Positions 1,654 through 5,538 of a DNA stretch of 37,493 bases are shown one piece after another (within the stretch, counting starts at the first letter, position 1; every line of letters begins with the position of its first letter). Below the pieces are notes generated by a model, which was given only the letters and a program-made list of their open reading frames with translations, was not told the DNA's origin and did no database searches. The stretch spans positions 1 through 37,493 of the forward strand of contig RFSW01000005.1 of assembly GCA_009923755.1 (NCBI GenBank), in the 5' to 3' direction. Source of the DNA: Betaproteobacteria bacterium. Its GTDB lineage: Bacteria; Pseudomonadota; Gammaproteobacteria; Burkholderiales; UBA3065. Made by a program: the position numbers and the translations under genes.

Positions 1654-2142
1654 GTCAGGGGCGCTCGGCGATAGGACCTTCGCATTGTTCTGCGCCAATG
1701 TGACAAATCGATCACGGTCATGAGCGATGCGAGCGCAGTCTCTTGTGGCCCGAGATCGGATTGGCCAGGACATCGTTGGTCACGCTGTTCATCCGTATGA
1801 CCAGCGCCGGGAAGCCTGCCGAGCCTTGTGCACGGGCTTGGGGAGGGCGTCTCTGGCTCCCTGGATCCGGTCATCCAGGGGCCGAAATTCTTTGAGGTCG
1901 ACAAAGCCGACCAAAGCCACTATGTTAGTTATGCAAAAGTTTGCAGTTAGTCGGTGAGTCCCCGTGCGTCGCACTGGGAACCATTCCCGGATCCGATGGA
2001 TTCGTCCTCCCGGTTGACCTGCTGCGAACTTCTGCAACATGGCTAGCCCGAGTGGGCGCCGTAGGGCGGCGCTTCGTCGTGGCGGGCTTCATTTCCGGGT
2101 CCCATGGATCCGTCATCTAAAAATCAGGTATCTGGAGGCGAA

Positions 2143-3403
2143 ATGGCAGCGAAGTTTACGCTTAAGGGCAAGTGGGTCTCGTTGGGTGTGGCAGCGTCGG
2201 CGTTGATGGCGGCTCAAAGCGCCATGGCGGTAGACGTTCAGGTGGAAGTGTTCCAGAAGAGCAAGAATCCCTGGGGCATGGCTTTCCTGAAGGACGGCAC
2301 CTTCTTCTTCACCGAAAAGTGCGACGGTCTTTCTGTGCGTCTTCCGTCCGGCAGCGTCAACAAGCTGCTCGGCGTGGGTGGCTCCAGCGGCTACGCCTCG
2401 GTCAGGGACGATCTGTTCTGTGATGGTCAGGCTGGTGTGCTCGGCGTCGAGGTCGATCCGAAGTTCAGCGAGAACCGGTTCATCTACGTCCGCTCCACGT
2501 CCCAGGGCGCCAACCGCAAGTACGGTGGTTACGCCAACATCCTGATGCGCATGAAGGTCAACAACGACTTCTCCGGCGTCACCGATGTCGTCGACATCAT
2601 CGATGACATGGGCTACAAGCCCAAGGCCACCAAGCATCCCTTCGGCGGCCCCGGCGCTCACAACGGCGGCATCGTCCGCTTCGGTCCTGACGGCTTCCTG
2701 TACGTGACCATCGGTGACAACCATAACGGCCCCGGTCCGCAGGATCCGAACGCACTGATCGGCAAGCTGCTGCGCGTCGACCGCGACGGCAAGGCGGCAC
2801 CGGGCAACAAGTCGCCCGGGTCGGACAAGCGCATCTTCGCCCACGGCTTCCGCAACCCGCAGGGCATCACTTTCCGCCCGGGTTCAGGCGACGTGTACCT
2901 GTCTGAGAACGGCCCGTGGCACAACGACGAGGTCACCAAGGTCGTCAATGGTGGCAACGGCGGCTGGGATCCGCGCGACAACGTCAACGGTCGTGGCGAG
3001 TGCCTATTCGCCGAACCAGATGGGTGCCGTTCCGCCGAAGGAGCGTGCCGCATTCATGCCCATGACCGACCTGAAGGCTTACCCCGCTGCGCTGAAGCCG
3101 GCATTCAACAATAACGGCCTGTCGCAAGGCATGTGTGGCAGCGCCTGGTTGGTCGGCAGCCAGTGGAAGGAATGGGAAGGTCGTCTGGCTGTGGGTTACG
3201 CCGGCATCGGCATCCACGGCACGGCGGTCGGTAACCGCATCGACATCCTGAACGTCGCGAACGACGGTTCCGGGGCCACCAAGGAGGAACTCTCCTGGCC
3301 CACCGCTACCGGTCGTCTGCGTCACCTCATCTCGGGCCCGGATGGCGCGCTGTATGTCGGCGATGAAGCCAGCGGCAACATCTACCGCGTGACCCCCCTG
3401 TAA
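2143..3403 (+). CDS. PQQ-dependent aldose sugar dehydrogenase-like (soluble GDH/HHIP-type beta-propeller), frameshifted near 3001-3006
   Basis: RBS ctggaggcgaaATG, signal peptide MAAKFTLKGKWVSLGVAASALMAAQSAMA; GAHNGGIVRFGPDGFLYVTIGD, FAHGFRNPQGITFRPGSGDVYLSENGP. Reading continues in another frame (YSPNQMGAVPPKERAAFMPMTDLKAY...GPDGALYVGDEASGNIYRVTPL). Confidence 0.85.
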
Positions 3404-4529: not shown

Positions 4530-4574
4530 AAAAAAAGCCGGACCGGGCGGCCTTCCATCCGCGCCGGCCCGGCT
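4530..4574 (-). terminator. Rho-independent terminator of BLUF-like/HTH gene
   Basis: Reverse strand AGCCGGGCCGGCGCGG-ATGGAAGG-CCGCCCGGTCCGGCT then TTTTTT; ~15-bp stem with one bulge and a U tract. Confidence 0.85.
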
Positions 4575-4584
4575 GAGGGAAACG

Positions 4585-5469
4585 TCACCTGGAATAGCCC
4601 ATCGAGGGGGCCGAGGCGGCGACCGCGCAGACCACCTCCGGCATCACGCTCATCACGCGGATCAGCGTCGCGGCCGCGCCGGTGGGTACGCGTTTGCCCT
4701 GTTCCCAATTGCGCAGCGTGTGCAGGGGTACACCGAAGCGTCGCGCGAACTCGACTTGCGTCAAGCCACTGCGTTGGCGCACCGCCCGTACCGTCGAGGA
4801 TGGCGTGTCATGGCCGTTGCTGCCATTGCTCGGGCTGATGTGATTGGCATGACGTAACGGCGCATGCAGCAGGGCGGCGCCACGTTCATTCCGCTCCGGC
4901 ATCCACTCGCCATCGACGATGAACGCACGCAAGCGGCGTCCGGCCTCCGGGTCGTCGTGGGCAAAAGCGTGTTCGATGCGACCGAAGCGGTCGCTGTCCA
5001 GTTGCGTGCTGGCCATCCACCAGCCGGGGAAATCCCGTTTCAGCGCAGGGCGCACGCGCAGCACGGTGAACTCGCTGTGGCGGGGGTCGCGGCCGATCAC
5101 CGTGAGAGCGTCGCCGACCCGCTCCGCGGTGCCTTCGAGCACCAGCAGCACGGCCTCGCCTTGTCGTGCCAGTACCCCAGTGATATTGCGCTTACGGTTC
5201 TCGCGGCGCGCCTGCGAGAGCAGGTCTACCCAGCCATCTCCCCCGTGCACCATGCGGCTGCGGCAGACCGCTTGGACCAGCTGGTTTGCGGTCACGGCCG
5301 GCAGCAGTGGAGCTTGCAGGGGGGGTTGACGCGGCGCTCGCGGGCGGGTTAAGGCGGACGCTGTCCCGATGTCGGGGGGGCGCCCGGCGCCATTCTTCGC
5401 GGCGGCGCTTGCGGATGCGTTCTTGGGGCTGGCAGCGGCATTCTTCATGGGTGGCAATCTATCGGGCAC
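4585..5469 (-). CDS. BLUF-fold domain protein with C-terminal XRE/HigA-type helix-turn-helix
   Basis: BLUF-like segment [11 protein letters not shown]...[113 protein letters not shown]. Start could be GTG 5469 or ATG 5448. Confidence 0.8.
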
Positions 5470-5538
5470 CGCCGCAGCGCGCTTTGCGGCAGATCAAGCT
5501 TCGCCGGTCCGATGTGCCATGAGTTAGAGTCGCGACCC

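Follow-up and report, generated by a model that had tools for sequence, protein, structure and literature searches.

A BLUF-XRE fusion without the photocycle tyrosine and glutamine in anoxygenic phototrophic betaproteobacteria, a possible redox- or photoreduction-responsive transcription factor

Main finding

A minus-strand gene in a 37,493-nucleotide stretch of betaproteobacterial DNA (hereafter the window) encodes a BLUF domain joined directly to an XRE-type helix-turn-helix (HTH), and the reactive Tyr-Gln pair of the canonical BLUF photoreceptor is absent from the fusion, with Cys and Leu in its place in four of four family members. Because neither Tyr nor Gln is present, the canonical photocycle is impossible, and whatever the protein senses, it is probably not light in the usual manner. 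It is proposed, with a probability of about 0.4, to be a one-component regulator in which a flavin-holding BLUF domain without that photocycle switches on flavin redox state or on photoreduction. The wider history is, if anything, more tentative: a BLUF photoreceptor may have become a redox- or photoreduction-responsive one-component transcription factor through duplication, XRE fusion and Tyr/Gln loss in anoxygenic phototrophs, as the BLUF counterpart of Cys-less LOV redox sensors. BLUF domains and LOV-HTH one-component regulators are already known; the BLUF-XRE fusion without both photocycle residues is new relative to the open-access literature searched.

Gene model and locus

The original prediction placed an open reading frame at 4585-5469. 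The frame is present on the minus strand, but its start is better assigned to the ATG at 5448 than to the GTG at 5469, since all three orthologues align from Met-Lys at that point; translation probably begins there (MKNAAAS...), giving a product of 287 rather than 294 amino acids. The gene sits between a divergent queA and a tRNA-Leu(CAA) gene, and the same two neighbours flank it at all four fusion loci. The strong terminator of its own that had been proposed was recovered by folding as a long GC stem and T7 (-33.5 kcal/mol, z -3.0), kept in the orthologues, although a simple scan missed it. Elsewhere in the window, a glucose/sorbosone dehydrogenase-like gene at 2104-3403 (+) appears to be divided between two frames that overlap (2104-3114 and 2948-3403), as a frameshift or an assembly error near 2950-3110 might produce.

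Table 1. Features of the fusion gene and its flanks, in window coordinates
Feature	Position	Strand	Basis
BLUF-XRE fusion gene, 287 aa	4585..5448	-	ATG backed by orthologue alignment
Conserved element GCTTGATCTGCCGCAAAGC, candidate operator/activator site	5481..5499	-	GCTTGA-N6-GCAA-N-GC, fixed spacing 4/4
TAGATT 7 nt before ATG, probable -10 of a near-leaderless promoter	5456..5461	-	Sequence and distance invariant 4/4; promoter role inferred
N-terminal extension, residues 1-54, variable, probably disordered	5287..5448	-	Identity 23-45%; dN/dS 0.34-0.58 where computable
BLUF core, residues 55-150	4999..5286	-	Pfam 60.1 bits; pLDDT 83.5; dN/dS 0.07-0.15
Cap helices alpha3/alpha4 (found in short BLUF proteins too), residues 151-190	4879..4998	-	Model helices 99-110, 116-126
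Variable linker, residues 191-216	4801..4878	-	Identity 28-73%; dN/dS 0.1 to about 1.2
XRE/Cro-C1 HTH, residues 217-280	4609..4800	-	HTH_3 E 3.2e-7; recognition region identical in 4/4
Cys62 codon at photocycle Tyr position (AppA Y21)	5263..5265	-	Cys in 4/4 fusions
Leu102 codon at photocycle Gln position (AppA Q63)	5143..5145	-	Leu in 4/4 fusions
Asn84 codon, flavin-pocket Asn (AppA N45)	5197..5199	-	Asn in 4/4 fusions, 107/107 other BLUF domains
Arg123-His124 codons, flavin-contact pair (AppA R84-H85), kept	5077..5082	-	Alignment
Trp143 codon, GWWM motif (AppA W104), kept	5020..5022	-	Alignment
Intrinsic terminator stem, then T7	4536..4574	-	Folding; kept in orthologues

Domain architecture and predicted fold

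Both domains pass their curated Pfam cut-offs within one open reading frame, BLUF with 60.1 bits (E 2.2e-16, cut-off 25) and HTH_3 with 30.7 bits (E 3.2e-7, cut-off 23), which upholds the direct fusion to an XRE-type HTH that had first been read by eye. Matches found with phmmer were structures of AppA, BlrB, Slr1694 and Tll0078 for the BLUF part and the XRE structures HigA-2 and Atu1735 for the HTH part. Because the first BLUF strand has diverged, the Pfam match begins at profile position 20, past the Tyr site; this strand is covered by a family alignment of more than 100 BLUF domains, ungapped around that site. Alignment with the paralogues extends through the cap-helix region to residue 190-198. 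The Ala/Pro-rich N-terminal extension that had been described is a property of the window copy, but it is poorly conserved among the orthologues.

A model of the BLUF part (140 residues, four sequences; pTM 0.78) shows the BLUF order of strands and helices together with two cap helices. The best 50 PDB matches listed for this model are all BLUF structures (top E 3.7e-10, TM about 0.67) and include Tll0078, Slr1694 (PixD), BlrB, AppA, BlrP1, BlsA and photoactivated cyclases. The BLUF part is accordingly modelled as the BLUF ferredoxin-like fold, in line with what had been claimed and against the opposing case of a structure prediction without that fold. The full-length model, also from four sequences, was poor (pLDDT 50) and was left out of the fold search.

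Loss of the photocycle pair and retention of the flavin pocket

Other BLUF domains, drawn from genomes in the window's class and genus, carry the photocycle Tyr in 100 of 102 cases with a residue at that column and the photocycle Gln in 103 of 108. Both are missing in only two other domains covering both columns, degenerate copies in genome G421. That genome (L165-L169) holds nine BLUF matches, several of them clustered, and the two copies have Phe/Ser and Phe/Thr at these places. A third double loss concerns a tandem BLUF protein in genome G136 (L050 1069-2052 (-), G136:C41), whose second domain has Cys at the Tyr place, as judged by eye, and Tyr at the Gln place.

The loss in the fusions is selective. 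When the 14 columns conserved at 90% or more in 100 other BLUF domains are considered, the fusion keeps 12 in all four orthologues and loses exactly Tyr and Gln, an outcome with a chance of 1/91 if two of the 14 columns were lost at random. Lowering the threshold to 80% adds one more loss, a Phe of beta3 (89% conserved) that is Val in the fusion, two residues before the Gln site. Asn84, Arg123, His124, Trp143 and Met145 (AppA N45, R84, H85, W104 and M106) are kept in all four fusions, and the additional Trp144 beside Trp143 is likewise invariant. The Tyr-to-Cys and Gln-to-Leu replacements, originally proposed from the window copy together with retention of the Asn, Arg, His, Trp and Met positions, hold throughout: the alignment around Cys62 and Leu102 has no gaps and is the same in all orthologues, and no Tyr or Gln is placed at the flavin site from elsewhere in the protein. 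The kept pocket residues suggest that the fusion binds FAD.

Ancestry and selection

A maximum-likelihood tree of 105 BLUF domains unites the four fusions as one group (100/100), nested in a nine-member clade found in this genus only (99/94), whose other five members are short BLUFs with Tyr and Gln. As 97 columns underlie this tree, the branching order inside the genus clade is not firm. The stem branch of the fusions is long (1.48), as expected of a duplicate with altered function. By this placement the fusion is a repurposed paralogue of a Tyr/Gln-bearing short BLUF of the same lineage, which agrees with the derivation from a photoreceptor first suggested for it.

The three orthologues are 70-77% identical to the window protein. 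At dS values mostly near 1, dN/dS between orthologues is as low in the HTH as in the BLUF core (Table 1); the cap helices give 0.14-0.24, and values for the linker and the N-terminal extension are for the most part far higher. Values of about 0.1 in both domains show that the gene is not decaying, and they indicate strong purifying selection after the residue change. A decaying gene or an assembly artefact is scarcely credible: the gene is missing from a fifth species of the genus, but the four copies come from separate assemblies with the same residues, and the upstream element and the terminator are conserved along with the coding sequence.

Distribution and hosts

The fusion had been called unusual, and it proved to be rare. 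Close relatives were sought in 85,462 species-representative genomes, and three full-length fusions were found; of the five genus genomes, which make up all of the family in the genomes searched, four carry the fusion, and no full fusion was found outside the genus in 951 genomes of the order, class and phylum. Plasmid and phage collections contained no full-length relative, and none of ten longer BLUF frames from the genome survey carried an HTH. One fusion gene, with its neighbourhood, lies on a MAG contig labelled Klebsiella pneumoniae (L003, CAMDGF010000011.1); that genome has pufL/M, and the label is very probably wrong.

In the fifth genome of the genus (G051), queA directly adjoins tRNA-Leu on a single contig. 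A contig-end artefact, considered for this contig of 7200 bases, is excluded by the presence of tRNA-Leu beside queA on the same contig, and the fusion is therefore truly missing from this locus. By QueA identity the most distant of the five is the window species, not G051. This favours loss in G051, but one protein without an outgroup does not settle gain against loss. The G051 locus (L195 7100-7200, G051:C73) also has a promoter-like pair before the tRNA, TTGCTG-N18-GATAAT, that matches TTGCAG-N18-GATAAT in the window.

All five genus genomes (G000, G001, G051, G096, G136) carry two Photo_RC genes (pufL/pufM, for example at G000:C114:6241-7914) and a PpsR/CrtJ homologue (458-475 bits), which identifies the hosts as anoxygenic phototrophic betaproteobacteria. 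Their genomes are about 2 Mb in size, and transcription in such phototrophs can be expected to respond to redox and light. A rhodopsin search gave no match, but neither did its controls, and it carries no information.

Upstream region

Upstream of the fusion gene, TAGATT lies exactly 30 nt past TTGAnn, with the ATG 7 nt further on, and this spacing is the same at all four loci, while the sequence between the conserved blocks is mostly unconserved. The arrangement suggests a leaderless or near-leaderless transcript. If TAGATT is the -10, the conserved element would centre near -41. Activators commonly bind there, as do repressors that overlap the -35, and regulation of either sign may apply. 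The fusion protein may regulate its own gene through this element. The element has a few exact copies elsewhere in the five genomes; in GC-rich DNA every match, known promoter ones included, falls within a long open frame, so the copies are not separable from chance and no regulon is inferred. Stretches around puf contain copies at chance level only, none with promoter spacing, and the region upstream of the fusion gene has no PpsR-type TGT-N12-ACA site.

Proposed mechanism and alternatives

The BLUF part of the proposed regulator derives from a short BLUF of photoactive type within the same lineage, and this domain, with its two cap helices, would provide sensing and dimerisation. Without Tyr and Gln the hydrogen-bond-switch photocycle cannot run, while flavin would most likely still be held through the five kept pocket residues. 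The switch would then be the flavin redox state, set either chemically or through slow photoreduction, and the signal would pass by way of beta5 and the cap helices into the HTH of an XRE dimer. The C-terminal XRE domain would bind DNA, most likely including the conserved element before its own gene; this element lies between two divergent genes, and another protein could be its binder. The kept pocket and the strong selection favour a flavin-holding sensor of redox or photoreduction. Precedents are the LOV-HTH regulator Bat, naturally devoid of the photocycle Cys and described as redox-sensing (PMC4844311, PMC4682037), and a BLUF cyclase without its Tyr whose output still runs through the neutral semiquinone (PMC4682037). 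Against this reading, the pocket residues may have been retained for folding instead, and a redox readout would need another route, since flavin N5/C4=O loses its customary hydrogen-bond partners when Cys and Leu stand at these positions. Work cited in PMC6695109 describes lit-like states on changing Gln in Slr1694 and AppA. Tyr, Gln and Trp mutants of BlsA are insoluble on overexpression (PMC6695109). A protein without bound flavin is thus an equally good reading of the double loss.

A flavin-free BLUF domain could act merely as a dimerisation or docking module for the XRE part, perhaps pairing with photoactive short BLUF paralogues that bring light signals to DNA. This is judged rather unlikely, yet the absence of Tyr and Gln from all four fusions and the Phe-to-Val change in beta3 fit it, several members of the genus keep short BLUFs of the sister clade, and BLUF proteins often work through partners, as in AppA-PpsR and BluF-BluR. 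It accounts poorly for the flavin-contact columns kept in every fusion and for a BLUF part that is no more relaxed than the HTH; moreover, the window's own genome, about 83% complete, yielded a single further BLUF, which belongs to a different clade. A flavin-holding regulator, the preferred reading, might instead still be a blue-light sensor, if Trp143/Trp144 supplied the electrons for photoreducing the flavin to its semiquinone or hydroquinone form. Tyr-less bPAC forms a neutral semiquinone and continues to control its cyclase, the polarity being inverted (PMC4682037, PMC9486806), OaPAC Y6F photoreduces its flavin to the fully reduced form (PMC9486806), both Trp residues are invariant in the fusions and the hosts are phototrophic. 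OaPAC Y6F is nevertheless called photoinactive in the usual sense (PMC9486806), and since precisely the two residues behind the efficient photocycle have gone, light sensing does not seem to be what selection kept; continued blue-light sensing is judged unlikely. The original description of the protein as non-photochemical thus stands for the canonical Tyr/Gln photocycle, which is unavailable, and goes too far for photoreduction, which is possible as in published Tyr-less BLUF mutants (PMC4682037, PMC9486806). LOV-like photochemistry, with a covalent adduct between Cys62 and flavin C4a, would explain an invariant Cys at a pocket-facing position; from BLUF geometry, however, the sulfur should fall several Angstroms short of C4a, compared with the long Tyr side chain, and such an adduct is rated very improbable on these grounds.

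Relation to known systems

The HTH shares sequence with XRE antitoxins of the HigA-2, NadS and MqsA types, including the WEQG recognition region, but falls below the curated cut-offs for NadS (35.7 against 60) and MqsA (20.2 against 30), and no toxin gene lies beside the fusion at any of the four loci. Short BLUF proteins (PixD/Slr1694, Tll0078, BlrB and BlsA) share with it the core, two cap helices and the Asn/Arg/His/Trp/Met pocket, and the fold matches to them have E values of about 1e-10 to 1e-8; unlike them, the fusion has Cys and Leu in place of Tyr and Gln, and a DNA-binding domain of its own. AppA, the PpsR antirepressor, is likewise a BLUF protein, with a sequence match to the fusion, in an anoxygenic phototroph with PpsR, and the AppA-PpsR pair of Rhodobacter is a natural comparison for the fusion hosts. 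However, AppA binds PpsR and has a further sensor domain, whereas the fusion lacks the Tyr/Gln pair and ends in an XRE HTH.

A published BLUF survey found 64% short BLUFs and 34% EAL proteins with a search pattern that demands Tyr and Gln, so that BLUF proteins without the pair escape it by design; HTH outputs do occur among flavin photosensors in general (PMC4844311). A search of the open-access literature for 'BLUF-HTH' found no paper. Four natural orthologues that lack the photocycle pair and are under strong selection offer a direct route to the role of a BLUF domain without its photocycle. The family allows one to ask whether BLUF can sense redox and how a BLUF signal reaches DNA within one polypeptide, with short BLUF paralogues of the same genus, their pair intact, as controls.

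In E. coli, a BLUF signal also ends at a DNA-binding protein, the repressor BluR; there BluF, a BLUF-EAL protein, contacts a separate MerR-like repressor (PMC3509220), whereas the fusion is one polypeptide. LOV-HTH regulators such as EL222 and archaeal Bat resemble the fusion in joining a flavin-photosensor fold directly to an HTH, and differ from it in fold, which is LOV in these regulators and BLUF in the fusion, whose HTH is of the XRE type. Bat naturally lacks the photocycle Cys and has been described as redox-sensing (PMC4844311, PMC4682037).
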